In this document: piece by piece, positions 20,180-50,905 of the stretch
Position numbering within the stretch: position 1 is the stretch's first letter
Layout of the letters: the number at the start of each line of letters is the position of its first letter
Assembly (NCBI RefSeq): GCF_001839655.2
Contig: NZ_CP056087.1
Location: 3,968,001 to 4,032,000 of the forward strand
DNA: 64,000 nt
Direction: 5' to 3'
Origin: Pseudomonas argentinensis
GTDB lineage: Bacteria > Pseudomonadota > Gammaproteobacteria > Pseudomonadales > Pseudomonadaceae
Notes under the pieces: generated by a model
Database searches by the model: none
The model's input: only the letters and a program-made list of their open reading frames with translations
What the model was told of the DNA's origin: nothing
Program-made: the position numbers and the translations under genes

Positions 20180-20239
20180 GCATATGCTGTCCAGAGGGTC
20201 GCGTGGCCCCAGGTGATTGATGCGCCGAATGCGGAACGA

Positions 20240-20263
20240 AAAAAAGGGCGACCGAAGTCGCCC
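20240..20263 (-). terminator. Terminator of the ccoM-like gene
   Basis: Stem GGGCGAC with tetraloop TTCG and GTCGCCC on the minus strand, followed by seven T. It lies 30 bp beyond the stop of the small membrane protein gene, which supports that gene being real. Confidence 0.9.
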
Positions 20264-20293
20264 CAATGCCTTGCGTGCTCGTGAGTCCGGTGG

Positions 20294-20677
20294 TCACTGC
20301 GGCTTGTTCTTGCGCGCATCCTTCCAGACGAAATAGGTGAATCCGGCGCCAAACAGAATCATCAGTGCAACGGTGCCGATACCGGCGAGAACCACCACAT
20401 TTAGGGTCTGTTCCCGTTTCAGCGCGAGCCGCGTTGCCGCGAGAAATGGCCTCCGGTTAGGCGCAGGACGCAGGGAATGGTCGTTCCCTTGCCAAGTCCT
20501 GCAACGACAGCGGAGGTCATTTCCCGCGCAACCCGAAGGGCCGGGCCAGTTTTTACGCGAGGCGGCGTTACTCGATGGCTCATTTGGCCCGCCAAACCTC
20601 GCATCTCGTGCCTTGCCTCGCGCAAAAACTGGCTCCGGCGCGGCCGTGCGTGAAACGGGAACAGACCCTAGGAACAT
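20294..20677 (-). CDS. ccoM: CcoM-like single-helix membrane protein carrying an in-frame MITE insertion
   Basis: The strong ribosome binding site AGGAGG (20682-20687), ATG at 20677, and codons for Met-Phe-Leu are followed by a MITE (20402-20670), after which the frame resumes NVVVLAGIGTVALMILF and ends AGFTYFVWKDARKNKPQ with its own terminator. Removing one TA and the element restores a 38-residue protein with one membrane helix and a WKDARK tail, very like CcoM, the small accessory subunit of cbb3 cytochrome oxidase of P. stutzeri (recognition from memory). The element plus TA is 267 bp, so the frame stays open and a 127-residue chimera with 89 inserted residues is encoded. Whether that chimera is made or works is unknown. 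Confidence 0.6.
   Translation of the reverse strand: MFLGSVPVSRTAAPEPVFARGKARDARFGGPNEPSSNAASRKNWPGPSGCAGNDLRCRCRTWQGNDHSLRPAPNRRPFLAATRLALKREQTLNVVVLAGIGTVALMILFGAGFTYFVWKDARKNKPQ
20402..20670. mobile_element. MITE copy 1 (GGGTCTGTT ends) inside the ccoM-like gene
   Basis: Core 20404-20668 (265 bp) with inverted ends GGGTCTGTTCCCGTTTC / GAAACGGGAACAGACCC and a TA on each side (20402-20403, 20669-20670), consistent with TA target duplication. It contains two long internal hairpins (for example GAAATGGCCTCCG / CGGAGGTCATTTC) and no transposase. It lies in codon 3 of the host gene. Confidence 0.88.
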
Positions 20678-20700
20678 GCTGCCTCCTGGCACCTGCTGCT

Positions 20701-21020
20701 CGGGTATGGCGCTACGTTAACAGCCAGGCGCCGCCGGCCATTGACCCAGGTCAACGGCCAGGCACGCGCGAGCCTCAGTGCCAGACAGCGACTGATCTGC
20801 ATCAATTTGGATAGGTGTGGGGCCGCGAAAACAGATACGCAGCAATGCGGCGAGCAGAGCGTTCCATTGGTAGGAGCGGCTTCAGCCGCGAGCCCTTTGC
20901 ACCTCAAAGCTCGCGGCTGAAGCGGATCGCCGCCGGCCCCTCCCGCGATCGTGACCGGGTCGCTACGCTACTTTGCAGCCAGCATCGATGAAATCCAGCT
21001 CAGGGATGCTGAGCAGGGTC
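20701..21020. other. 320-bp spacer with a REP hairpin
   Basis: No gene is seen. A palindromic repeat at 20871-20945 has arms GCGGCTTCAGCCGCGAGC and GCTCGCGGCTGAAGCGG, a common Pseudomonas REP type; a related partial copy lies at 30190-30236. The left end should contain the promoter of the ccoM-like gene. Confidence 0.7.
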
Positions 21021-22230: not shown

Positions 22231-22410
22231 AGGGGTTCGTTGCCGTTGCACCCACGGCCGCACCGGAGCCCTACGGGTGGGGCCGCCCAGGCTGCGCGAG
22301 AAATCCCGCCATGCGTCGTTGCAGCAGCACTTGGATCGGGGACGCCATTGCCTGACCTGGCGAGATTTCCCGCGGCGACGCGGCTCGCGTTGAAATGGCA
22401 ACAGACCCTA
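22231..22410. mobile_element. Decayed, shortened MITE copy 2 upstream of rapA
   Basis: The right end GCGTTGAAATGGCAACAGACCCTA matches the other copies in pieces; the left end is degraded (GGGTTCGTTGCCGTT instead of GGGTCTGTTGCCGTT), the left TA is lost, and only about 180 bp remain. It sits in the 353-bp divergent space between the hypothetical gene and rapA and ends 47 bp before the rapA ATG, so it may lie in the rapA promoter. Confidence 0.75.
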
Positions 22411-22457
22411 GCCCTGCGGTAACATAGTCGGCTTTTTCACAGGTGGAGACAGGCAGC

Positions 22458-25301
22458 ATGGCGGAGTATCAACCGGGGCAACGCTGGATCAGCGACAGCG
22501 AAGCGGAACTGGGCTTGGGCACCATCCTCATGCAGGACGGCCGCATGCTCACCGTGCTCTACCCCGCCACCGGCGAAACCCGCCAGTACGCGGCCCGCAA
22601 TGCGCCGCTGACCCGCGTGCGTTTCTCGCCGGGCGACGAGATCACCCACTTCGAAGGCTGGAAGCTGACCGTCCGCGAAGTCGACGACGTCGATGGCCTG
22701 CTGGTCTATCACGGCCTCGACGCCAAGAACCAGGCCGTCACCCTGCCGGAAACCCAGCTGTCCAATTTCATCCAGTTCCGCCTGGCCAGCGACCGCCTGT
22801 TCGCCGGGCAGATCGACCCGCTACCGTGGTTCTCGCTGCGCTACCGCACCCTGGAGTTCACCAGCAAGCAGGTGCAGTCCTCGCTGTGGGGCCTGGGCGG
22901 CGTGCGTGCGCAACCCATCGCGCACCAGTTGCACATCGCCCGTGAAGTGGCCGACCGTATCGCCCCGCGCGTACTGCTGGCCGACGAAGTGGGCCTGGGC
23001 AAGACCATCGAAGCCGGCCTGGTGATCCATCGCCAACTGCTCTCCGGGCGCGCCAGCCGCGTGCTGATCCTGGTGCCGGAAAACCTGCAGCACCAGTGGC
23101 TGGTGGAAATGCGCCGGCGCTTCAACCTGGAAGTGGCGCTGTTCGACGCCGAGCGCTTTATCGAGAGCGACGCCAGCAACCCGTTCGAGGACGCGCAACT
23201 GGCGCTGGTTGCGCTGGAGTGGCTGTGCGAGGACGAAAAGGCCCAGGACGCGCTGTTCGCCGCCGGCTGGGACCTGATGGTGGTCGACGAAGCCCACCAC
23301 CTGGTCTGGCACCCGGAAAAGGCCAGCCGCGAGTACAGCCTGGTCGAGCAGCTGGCCGAAGTGATCCCTGGCGTGCTGCTGCTCACCGCCACCCCCGAAC
23401 AGCTCGGCCAGGACAGCCACTTCGCGCGCCTGCGCCTGCTCGACCCGAATCGCTTCCATGACCTGGACGCCTTCCGCGCCGAGAGCGCCAGCTACAAACC
23501 GGTGGCCGAGGCGGTGCAGGAACTGCTCGACCAGGGCCAGCTCAGCGCCCAGGCCCGCGATGCCATCGGCAGTTTCCTGGGCGATGATAGCCGCCAATTG
23601 CTCGACGCCGCCGACGGTGGCGACAGCGACGCCCGCGCCCGCCTGGTACGCGAGCTGCTCGACCGTCATGGCACCGGCCGCCTGCTGTTCCGCAACACCC
23701 GCGCCGCGGTGCAGGGTTTCCCGGAGCGCGAGCTGCACCCCTACCCGCTGCCGAGCCCGGACGAGTACATGGAGCTGCCCCTGGGCGAGCACGCCGAGCT
23801 GTACCCGGAAGTCAGCTACCAGGGCCAGGCCGATATCGAGGAAGACCAGCGCTGGTGGCGCTTCGACCCACGCGTCGAGTGGCTGATAGACACCCTGAAG
23901 ATGCTCAAGAAATTCAAGGTACTGGTGATCTGCGCCCACGCCGAAACCGCCATGGACCTGGAGGACGCCCTGCGCGTGCGCTCCGGCATCCCGGCCACGG
24001 TGTTCCACGAGGGCATGAGCATCCTCGAGCGTGACCGCGCCGCCGCCTACTTCGCCGACGAAGAATTCGGCGCCCAGGTGCTGATCTGTTCGGAAATCGG
24101 CTCCGAAGGCCGCAACTTCCAGTTCGCCCACCACCTGGTGCTGTTCGACCTGCCGGCCCACCCGGACCTGCTCGAGCAGCGCATCGGCCGCCTCGACCGC
24201 ATCGGGCAGAAGCACAGGATCCAGCTACACGTGCCGTACATGGAAAACAGCCCCCAGGAGCGCCTGTTCCAGTGGTACCACCAGGCGCTGAACGCCTTCC
24301 TGGCCACCTGCCCGACCGGCAACGCCCTGCAGCACCAGTTCGGCAGCCGCCTGCTGCCGATGCTGGAGAACGCCGACGATGGCCAGTGGCAAGCGCTGAT
24401 CGACGAAGCCACCGCCGAGCGCAAGCGCCTGGAAGGCGACCTGCACGCCGGTCGCGACCGCCTACTGGAACTCAACTCCGGCGGCGCCGGTGAAGGCGAG
24501 GCGCTGGTCGAGGCGATCCTCGAGCAGGACGACCAGTTCGCCCTGCCGATCTACATGGAGCAGCTGTTCGACGCCTTCGGCATCGACAGCGAAGACCATT
24601 CCGACAACGCCCTGATCCTGCGCCCCAGCGAGAAGATGCTCGATGCCAGCTTCCCCCTCGGCAACGACGAAGGCGTGACCATCACCTACGACCGCGACCT
24701 GGCCCTGTCCCGCGAAGACATGCAGTTCCTGACCTGGGAACACCCCATGGTGCAGGGCGGCATGGACCTGGTGCGCTCCGGCTCGATGGGCAACACCTCG
24801 GTGGCGCTGATCAAGAACAAGGCGCTCAAGCCTGGCACCGTGCTGCTCGAACTGCTGTACGTCAGCGAGGTGGTGGCGCCGCGCAAGCTGCAACTGGGCC
24901 GCTACCTGCCACCTGCCGCCCTGCGCTGCCTGCTCGACGGCAACGGCAACGACCTGGCCTCCAAGGTGTCCTTCGACACCCTCAACGATCAGCTCGAAGC
25001 CGTGCCGCGCGCCAGCGCCAACAAGTTCGTGCAGGCCCAGCGCGATGCCCTGACGCCGAAGATCGCTGCCGGCGAGGCCAAGATCTCGCCGCGCCACGTT
25101 GAACGCGTCACCGAGGCCAAGCGCCGCCTGGCCGCCGAACTGGACGAGGAGCTGGCCCGCCTGACCGCCCTGCAGGCGGTCAACCCGAGCGTACGTGACA
25201 GCGAGCTGGACGCCCTGCGCGAGCAGCGCGAGCAAGGCCTGGCCATGCTCGACAAGGCCGCCCTGCGCCTGGAAGCCATACGGGTACTGGTTGCCGGCTG
25301 A
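22458..25301 (+). CDS. rapA: RNA polymerase-associated Swi2/Snf2 ATPase RapA (HepA)
   Basis: A 947-residue helicase-like ATPase that binds RNA polymerase and helps recycle it after transcription. N-terminal tandem Tudor-like domains start [21 protein letters not shown]; the Snf2 core carries Walker [13 protein letters not shown] near residue 176, the DEAHH box near 278, the [21 protein letters not shown] motif, and C-terminal helicase motifs [21 protein letters not shown] and [13 protein letters not shown]. Length agrees with about 950 in P. aeruginosa. Start at 22458 is eight bases after GGAGA. Confidence 0.96.
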
Positions 25302-26258: not shown

Positions 26259-26540
26259 TAGGGTCTGTTGCCGTTTCACGCACGGCCGCGCCGGAGCCCG
26301 TTTTGCCGCAAAGCAAGGCACGAGCCGCGAAGTTTAGCTGGCTAAATGAGCCGGCGAGAAACGCTGCATCGCGGCAAAACGGGCCTGGCCCTTTGGGTTG
26401 CGCGGGAAATCTCGCCAGGCGTCGTTGGAGGACTTGGCAAGGGAAAACGCGGACGGCTAGTCCATTCCCTGCGTCCTCCGTCTAGCCTGGCGAGATTTCC
26501 CGCGGCAACGCGGCTCGCGTTGAAACGGCAACAGACCCTA
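26259..26540. mobile_element. MITE copy 3 abutting the ribosome binding site of the aldo/keto reductase gene
   Basis: Ends GGGTCTGTTGCCGTTTCA / TGAAACGGCAACAGACCC flanked by TA at 26259-26260 and 26539-26540. Two internal hairpins are perfect: CCCGTTTTGCCGC (26297-26309) with GCGGCAAAACGGG (26371-26383), and a 20-bp arm 26401-26420 with 26485-26504 (GGAAATCTCGCCAGGC core). Orientation is opposite to copies 1 and 4. No transposase. Confidence 0.9.
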
Positions 26541-29884: not shown

Positions 29885-30180
29885 GAAAAATTAGCAGGCG
29901 ACAGCAATCGCCCCTTCAGGAGGCCAAGCGGAATCGTTGCGGAGAGGGTTGAGCGACATGGATGTCGCGAGAGCCGCGATGGGCCAAGGATGGCCCTTCG
30001 CGGCGGGCCCTCGGAGCAACGATGTAGCGAGGGAACCCCGGCGAAGCCGGGGCCGGATGTCGGGGCTAGACCTTTTGGTTTCTTTTGGGGCGATGCCAAA
30101 AGAAACCCGCTCGACAGAGCGGAACCGAACGTATGAACAACGCAACAACGCTGGCAAACCACAGCTCACGCATCGCGTAT
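29885..30180. repeat. Structured dispersed element of about 300 bp
   Basis: No credible gene in 29807-30291. This stretch has several hairpins: ACCCCGGCGAAGCCGGGGC, a perfect 12-bp stem GGTTTCTTTTGG / CCAAAAGAAACC at 30077-30107, and CGCTCGACAGAGCG next to it. I recall very similar blocks between genes of many pseudomonads. A partial REP (GCTCGCGGCTAAAGCGGATCG) follows at 30190-30236. Possibly a mobile repeat or a transcribed structured RNA. Confidence 0.55.
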
Positions 30181-46051: not shown

Positions 46052-46413
46052 CAGGGTCTGTTGACGTTTCAACGCGAGCCGCGTTGCCGCGAGAAATCTC
46101 GCCAGGCCGGGCGGCGATCCGCTAGGCCGAGGACGCAGGTAATGGACTAGCCGTCCGCGCTTTCCCTTGCCAAGTCCTCCAACGACGCATGGCGAGATTT
46201 CTCGCACAACCTAGGCGGCCCCACCCGTAGGGCCGGGCCCGTTTTGTCGCGATGCGGCGTTACTCGATGGCTCATTTGGCCCACCAAACTTCGCGGCTGT
46301 GTGACCCACATGGATGTGGGAGATGCCGCAAGCCCGCCGGGAGCGGGCGCGGCCCTTGCCTCGCGACAAAACGGGCTCCGGCGCGGCCGTGCGTGAAACC
46401 TCAACAGACCCTA
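46052..46413. mobile_element. MITE copy 4 between bcp and the tusA-like gene
   Basis: Ends GGGTCTGTTGACGTTTCA / TGAAACCTCAACAGACCC; TA remains at the right (46412-46413) and CA at the left (46052-46053). At about 360 bp it is the longest copy because of an extra hairpin block (CCACATGGATGTGG, GCCCGCCGGGAGCGGGC) at about 46303-46355. Internal hairpins as in copy 3 (GAGAAATCTCGCCAGGC and a distant partner). The right TA forms part of the stop codon of the tusA-like gene. Confidence 0.9.
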
Positions 46414-50829: not shown

Positions 50830-50905
50830 TGGTGGGTCGTGTAGGATTCGAACCTACGACCAATTGGTTAAAAGCCAACTGCTCTACCAACTGAGCTAAC
50901 GACCC
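50830..50905 (-). tRNA. tRNA-Lys (anticodon TTT)
   Basis: 76-nt cloverleaf on the minus strand: acceptor GGGTCGT pairs with ACGACCC, D arm GCTC/GAGC, anticodon loop CTTTTAA with anticodon TTT, T arm GTAGG/CCTAC with GGTTCGAATCC, encoded CCA. In PAO1 the tRNA-Lys next to queC is the insertion site of PAPI-1/pKLC102-like islands; here it is directly followed by the ilvE terminator region, with no integrase. Confidence 0.97.

Follow-up and report, generated by a model that had tools for sequence, protein, structure and literature searches.

A palindromic mobile element within the putative dual-function gene phrS/ccoM of Pseudomonas argentinensis

A 265-bp palindromic mobile element was found in a small gene of Pseudomonas argentinensis, within the 64,000-nt stretch of DNA analysed here (the window; NZ_CP056087.1, positions 3,968,001 to 4,032,000). 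The main interest lies in the target, which appears to be a dual-function gene for the cbb3 oxidase subunit CcoM and the regulatory RNA PhrS, and the halves of which separate in nature. As read from the sequence, the insertion parts this dual-function RNA, PhrS/CcoM, into two. The initial annotation had placed a MITE-like element within codon 3 of ccoM, which direct reading, genome copies and terminal repeats upheld. It had missed that the same gene is also that of PhrS, so that a dual-function RNA is split. A functional chimera between element and CcoM is unlikely.

Direct reading of the minus strand gave, in this order, AGGAGG, ATG-TTC-C, TA, the 265-bp element, TA, AAT-GTG-GTG, a membrane helix, TGA and a terminator (Table 1). 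The promoter, the Shine-Dalgarno sequence and ATG lie upstream of the element, and the helix, creg and the terminator lie downstream. The helix ends in FVWKDARKNKPQ, which is followed by the stop codon TGA. The termini of the element are perfect inverted repeats, GGGTCTGTTCCCGTTTCA. The element plus one TA amount to 267 bp, or 89 codons, and translation confirmed the earlier claim that they contain no stop in the ccoM frame. The frame from ATG is open over 127 codons.

Upstream of ATG, the sequence contains an ANR-like box, the centre of which is at -40.5 relative to the inferred transcription start (20707). Its motif resembles that of ANR/FNR, and ANR would presumably bind at TTGACCTGGGTCAA. 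The inferred transcript is about 468 nt long here versus 202-205 nt in six relatives.

Table 1. Features of the interrupted locus, in window positions
Feature	Position	Strand	Basis
ANR/FNR-like box TTGACCTGGGTCAA	20741..20754	-	Centre at -40.5 of inferred transcription start; sequence and spacing
-10-like region TGTTAACG (putative function)	20715..20722	-	Between box and inferred start; in relatives' alignment
Inferred interrupted phrS/ccoM transcript, ~468 nt	20240..20707	-	Start, alignment and box spacing; end, terminator U run
Shine-Dalgarno AGGAGG	20682..20687	-	Sequence
5' ccoM piece, ATG TTC C and first TA	20669..20677	-	Sequence; aligns with start of 38-aa ORF of nine relatives
265-bp palindromic MITE-like element, ends GGGTCTGTTCCCGTTTCA	20404..20668	-	Genome copies, terminal repeats, RNA fold
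Second TA, target-site duplicate	20402..20403	-	Relatives' alignment; TA on both sides in 19/30 copies
3' ccoM piece, codon 4 to stop, membrane helix	20294..20401	-	NF041600 and 5djq_N matches
127-aa open frame across element, hypothetical chimera	20294..20677	-	ORF translation; prediction only
Rfam RF01673 PhrS match, 131.2 bits (cut-off 37)	20237..20440	-	Covariance-model scan
creg element of PhrS GAGCACGCAAGGCA, intact	20267..20280	-	Located by description in accessible part of PMC9308961
Intrinsic terminator stem, U run after	20246..20263	-	Sequence

Alignment of the locus with close relatives, a comparison already suggested in the initial annotation, showed an empty site in nine of them (P. 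straminea, P. sp. PA27, G34, P. punonensis, PA15, URMO17WK12:I2, P. flavescens, P. daroniae and one more genome). All nine have an uninterrupted 38-aa ORF, in agreement with the 38-residue CcoM-like protein foreseen for the gene without the element. The proposed likeness of the last 35 residues to CcoM was also borne out. These residues matched NCBIfam NF041600 (CcoM) with 54.7 bits (cut-off 40) and chain N of PDB 5djq with E 8e-9, and the whole 127-aa frame matched NF041600 with 51.4 bits (cut-off 40). CcoM is a 36-aa cbb3 subunit according to the accessible part of PMC10433244, in which the word sRNA is absent. A free-standing single-helix CcoM of 36-38 aa from its own ATG was not found at this locus, with the element in codon 3. 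Codon 4 is N here and D in all nine relatives.

The P. argentinensis genome gave one ccoM match at E 0.01; a second CcoM match, at E 0.4, was not counted as ccoM. It also gave two ccoN above cut-off and one PhrS match. This indicated a cbb3-bearing genome of which the sole detected ccoM is interrupted.

Scanning with cmscan placed PhrS (RF01673) across the ORF in 40/40 ccoM loci, the interrupted one included (L032 and L146 are one place, leaving 39 distinct loci). The ORF of the Rfam PhrS consensus is 38 codons by translation, and matched NF041600 with 67.2 bits and 5djq chain N with E 1e-14. The accessible parts of two reviews (PMC8395346, PMC9308961) give the PhrS ORF of P. aeruginosa as 37 aa, and call the function of its peptide unknown. 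The same parts describe PhrS in P. aeruginosa as a dual-function, ANR-dependent RNA (PMC8395346), with creg at nt 169-182, downstream of the ORF (PMC9308961). Association with Hfq and action on pqsR or the CRISPR leader in P. aeruginosa are also described there and in the accessible part of PMC8545117.

The PhrS match at the interrupted locus scored far above the Rfam cut-off, though its first 37 nt (20440-20404) belong to the element, on the far side of which the true 5' end is located. Downstream of the ORF, GAGCACGCAAGGCA was found at 20280-20267, as expected of creg. On the other hand, the contiguous RNA of about 200 nt, comprising leader, ORF, creg and terminator, was not found, since it is split by 267 nt.

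We give roughly even chances to the following general interpretation. The PhrS peptide would be CcoM, and PhrS would be the mRNA of an oxidase subunit with a regulatory 3' end. The two halves would separate in nature, by a mobile element here and by ORF loss in about 14 other genomes of the genus, and the insertion here would have made a protein-free PhrS. No link between PhrS and CcoM was found among the literature matches listed, or in the accessible parts of PMC12491237 and PMC3272035. It may be in print elsewhere, for example in the CcoM discovery paper.

The element belongs to a family. In the P. argentinensis genome (5.08 Mb, one contig, completeness 100), the query matched 54 pieces, including that of the window and several partial or reverse pieces, and the closest other copy was 97% identical. 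The terminal repeat occurred 85 times at no more than one mismatch, and the reversed control 0 times. From 41 loci, 30 distinct repeat-bounded copies of 157-359 bp were extracted, and TA flanked both ends in 19 of them. The terminal inverted repeats, the target-site duplication, the many copies and the lack of room for a transposase gene are those of a MITE. Two further copies lie in the window, at 26261-26538 (278 bp) and 46054-46411 (358 bp). A lone terminal repeat with one mismatch is at 22391-22408, just upstream of a 952-aa ORF (22443-25301) that, to our eye, presumably resembles a helicase.

Among the best 80 of 144 loci, kin of the element came from many Pseudomonas and also from Salinicola. 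Plasmid matches were in Halomonas (one record), Azotobacter (two) and P. aeruginosa (one), and these four records had no annotated feature under the element matches listed. Phages gave no match to the element. The search of Rfam produced a sub-threshold match only (MIR3627, 19.1 bits, cut-off 64). No autonomous partner with the same ends was found in the P. argentinensis genome, where facing repeat pairs were at most about 360 bp apart, and no parent transposase appeared among the matches listed in two other genomes. Literature matches listed for the first nine bases of the element included none that was related, judged by title and start of abstract.

The predicted RNA fold of the element was -170.5 kcal/mol (z -9.9). 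Covariation was examined in the 17 copies (of 30) with a length of 251-278 bp (loci among L001-L022). Two-sided changes were present at 30/97 predicted pairs, and 97.7% of cells pair, values somewhat favoured by deriving the structure from the rows tested, all of one genome. When the partner was slid by 1-3 columns, only 2-5 two-sided pairs were left. Not one of 500 shuffles matched the observed value on four measures; five matched the number of further pair types. These comparisons indicate that the whole body of this MITE-like element, beyond its ends, is maintained as a paired fold. The two-sided changes, alike in both arms, exceed the need of simple terminal repeats.

We propose the following explanation for the interrupted gene. 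A single phrS/ccoM gene with an ANR-type promoter would give one transcript, from which CcoM, the single-helix cbb3 oxidase subunit, would be translated and which would also act as the regulatory RNA PhrS with creg and terminator. The palindromic element inserted at a TA within codon 3. Transcription would start at the intact promoter and read through to the old terminator. The hairpin of the element, the foot of which is 6 nt past the start codon, would strongly reduce initiation, and any protein made would bear 89 foreign, positively charged residues before the helix, on the presumed periplasmic side. CcoM would be lost, and the regulatory half may persist on a longer RNA. The element would tend to uncouple coding from regulation in a dual-function RNA. 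Taken as a whole, the explanation that CcoM was lost, that the RNA half may survive and that a dual-function gene was split is in our judgement a probable one. It builds on direct observation of the anatomy, the empty site, the family identities and a search that found no second copy.

Folding predictions were made for the start site and for creg. On the presupposition of equilibrium folding, the energy for opening the region from -16 to +15 around the start was 28.7 kcal/mol with the element, compared with 11.8-15.2 in six relatives. With the first 90-93 nt alone, the predicted penalty was smaller (18.0 versus 13.1-14.6), and for the Shine-Dalgarno sequence alone the opening was unchanged (4.6 versus 4.1-5.0). 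The predicted opening of creg was 3.2, compared with 1.9-4.9 in the relatives. Since creg and the terminator are unchanged and predicted to be equally accessible, the regulatory half may survive.

The 92 residues ahead of the helix contain 16 K+R and 6 D+E. They form no second helix, their top Kyte-Doolittle mean being 0.73 versus 2.37 for the helix. The positive C-terminus of CcoM suggests an N-out placement, which, under the positive-inside rule of membrane topology, would be hindered by this charged tail. From the hairpin near the start and the charged tail we infer the loss of CcoM. Loss of CcoM with possible persistence of the RNA half is thus the most likely outcome on these predictions. 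The initial annotation had offered two outcomes. The probable loss of a cbb3-oxidase subunit stood, and the functional 89-residue chimera was not supported, in view of the open-frame rate, the homologues, the predicted fold and the charge.

The frame remained open, which is not required of a null allele and speaks against regarding the gene as one. On the other hand, the nearest copy in the genome is 97% identical, which points to a probably recent insertion, and little can be read from the absence of further decay.

Changes on the P. argentinensis branch, defined as sites at which P. argentinensis departs from a state shared by six near relatives, were counted along the locus. There were none in the 14 sites of the ANR-like box, two in 63 from the box to ATG, five in 117 of the CDS, one in 13 from the stop to creg and none in the 44 of creg plus terminator. 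Four of the five CDS changes alter amino acids, including D4N. The distribution is no more than suggestive of relaxed selection on ccoM, the contrast between 5/117 and 0/44 being too small for proof.

The separation of the two halves was also followed in 298 genomes of the same genus. PhrS matched in 294 of them, in 290 above cut-off, and the CcoM tail of the window matched in 271 at E 0.01, P. argentinensis included. The 27 genomes without a match to the CcoM tail had a PhrS match in 23 cases, 19 of them above the Rfam cut-off. That all 27 lack CcoM was rejected: six hold a diverged CcoM above the NCBI cut-off at the PhrS locus (L206-L211), so diverged CcoM elsewhere is possible in the other 21. 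At L212, a 38-aa ORF scored 18.9 bits only as CcoM, and at L213 the ORF is mostly deleted. L213 has lost the ORF start and most of the helix and keeps the box, leader, creg and terminator, as a possible intermediate would.

In 14 of the 298 genomes, creg and terminator are kept, and no CcoM-like ATG ORF was found within 225 nt before creg. These are L214-L224, all above the Rfam cut-off (two match the 3' end only), and L226-L228, below the cut-off and recognised through the creg letters. L225, also below cut-off, does not have the exact creg letters. A loosely defined, candidate ANR-like box was found 79-98 nt before creg in 13 of the 14, and the fourteenth has a strict one. In 23 of the 26 other loci examined outside P. 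argentinensis, the box is 208-218 nt from creg; the exceptions are L213 (144), L149 (262) and L033 (no creg letters). The ORF-less loci with creg and terminator support separable halves, and judging from these loci the peptide seems to be lost before the RNA end.

Some further observations were made on the PhrS loci and the window. In 12 of the 14 ORF-less 'mini-PhrS' loci, a motif of the upstream gene of the window precedes creg. In genome G014, CcoM matches at two places some 5 kb from each other (C1:2484968-2485063, which is L033, and 2480164-2480259), and PhrS also matches twice. L035 (genome G012) carries matches to a group II intron at 748-1300 of the minus strand; they begin some 130 bp downstream of the PhrS end and share its strand. 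The window also holds a weak TwoAYGGAY RNA match (29945-30010; 45.3 bits, cut-off 43) and a tRNA (50833-50905).

The presence of CcoM was compared with that of the oxidase. A ccoN match (E 1e-3, not solely above cut-off) was missing in four of the 298 genomes, and all four were among the 21 without CcoM above cut-off, an absence that is based on one short query and the PhrS locus. At most one ccoN match was found in 17 of these 21, compared with 15 of the 277 with CcoM, P. argentinensis being counted among the latter. The Fisher p-values (1.9e-5 and 1.4e-15, respectively) are overstated, since species are not independent. Unlike most of the 21, P. argentinensis has two ccoN above cut-off. This suggests that the break of ccoM here is recent and accidental, and no long-standing loss.

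Other fates of the gene were weighed against the loss of CcoM with a surviving RNA half. The long, GC-rich hairpin might terminate the transcript or expose it to decay, in which case neither CcoM nor a working PhrS would be made. The fold of the element (-170.5 kcal/mol, z -9.9) points in this direction, a PhrS with its 5' part so distant may not function, and total loss seems tolerated somewhere, as four of the 298 genomes are without a PhrS match. On the other hand, no T run follows the element stem, which makes it unlike an intrinsic terminator, and the box, creg and terminator have no changes on the P. argentinensis branch. The frame is also open, so that translating ribosomes could hold off Rho. 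We regard such a double loss as unlikely, yet to be taken seriously. Re-initiation at a GTG just past the element (ccoM codon 5 or 6) would give CcoM minus about four residues, and the in-frame AAT-GTG-GTG lies directly 3' of the element. No properly spaced Shine-Dalgarno sequence was seen there by eye; GGGA is about 16 nt upstream, within the stem, and the N-terminus that would be lost, MF[LV]D, is common to all nine relatives. This outcome is improbable.

Quite improbable, and slightly more so than re-initiation, is a 127-aa CcoM with an 89-residue N-terminus derived from the element, made and working in the oxidase. The Shine-Dalgarno sequence, ATG, unbroken 127-codon frame and length change divisible by three would allow it, the helix retains its 51.4 bits as CcoM, and in-frame fusions of small elements are described for Rickettsia (accessible part of PMC10969869). 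Four of the eight copies of exactly 265 bp are also open in frame; these are close kin. Over all 30 copies, on the other hand, the frame is open in six, compared with a fraction of 0.204 in 2000 dinucleotide shuffles of the window's copy, and a length in multiples of three adds a factor of about 3. The open frame is therefore hardly special, being at about the chance rate. For the same reason (6/30 overall, 4/8 of those of 265 bp), chimera formation as a Rickettsia-like family trait was rejected. Given the topology of the parent protein and the positive-inside rule, a net charge of about +10 would need to be translocated across the membrane in front of the helix. The start site is predicted to be far less open, and four of the five CDS changes on this branch alter amino acids. 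None of the seven database homologues of the 127-aa frame had a CcoM match, and no other chimera was found among them. Repeats are a common assembly hazard, and the element might be absent from the culture or present in part of it only. This is hardly credible for a one-contig genome of completeness 100 with TA on either side of the element and flanks that match the relatives.

Insertion of a MITE in a gene is commonplace, whereas the splitting of a dual-function RNA into its protein and regulatory halves by a mobile element is not. The NCBI CcoM model and the 5djq structure, applied to the consensus ORF, offer an answer to the unexplained PhrS peptide. If true, low-oxygen respiration and PhrS regulation would be joined on one transcript, and an oxidase subunit may have been lost along with PhrS in phrS deletions. 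The genomes with an ORF-less PhrS provide a set for testing the role of the RNA itself.

Compared with known systems, the locus is like CcoM (NF041600, 5djq chain N) in the match of its C-terminal 35 residues and in the 38-aa length in nine relatives. It is unlike ccoM of these relatives in that the ORF is broken in codon 3, and the start and the helix are 267 nt further apart. It resembles PhrS (RF01673) in its 131.2-bit match, its intact creg and terminator and its ANR-like box at -40.5, and differs in that the 5' end is set apart from the remainder by the 265-bp element. For the element itself, the accessible part of a review of bacterial MITEs (PMC10969869) served as the source of comparison, both for MITEs and for the palindromic elements of Rickettsia. 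Like the former, the element is short, with terminal inverted repeats, TA duplication and many copies; unlike them, its entire body is paired, with two-sided changes at 30/97 pairs. The Rickettsia elements are described there as carrying a conserved peptide, often in frame. Our element is like them in being palindromic and in-frame within a coding gene, and unlike them in that an open frame occurs among its copies roughly as often as expected by chance.
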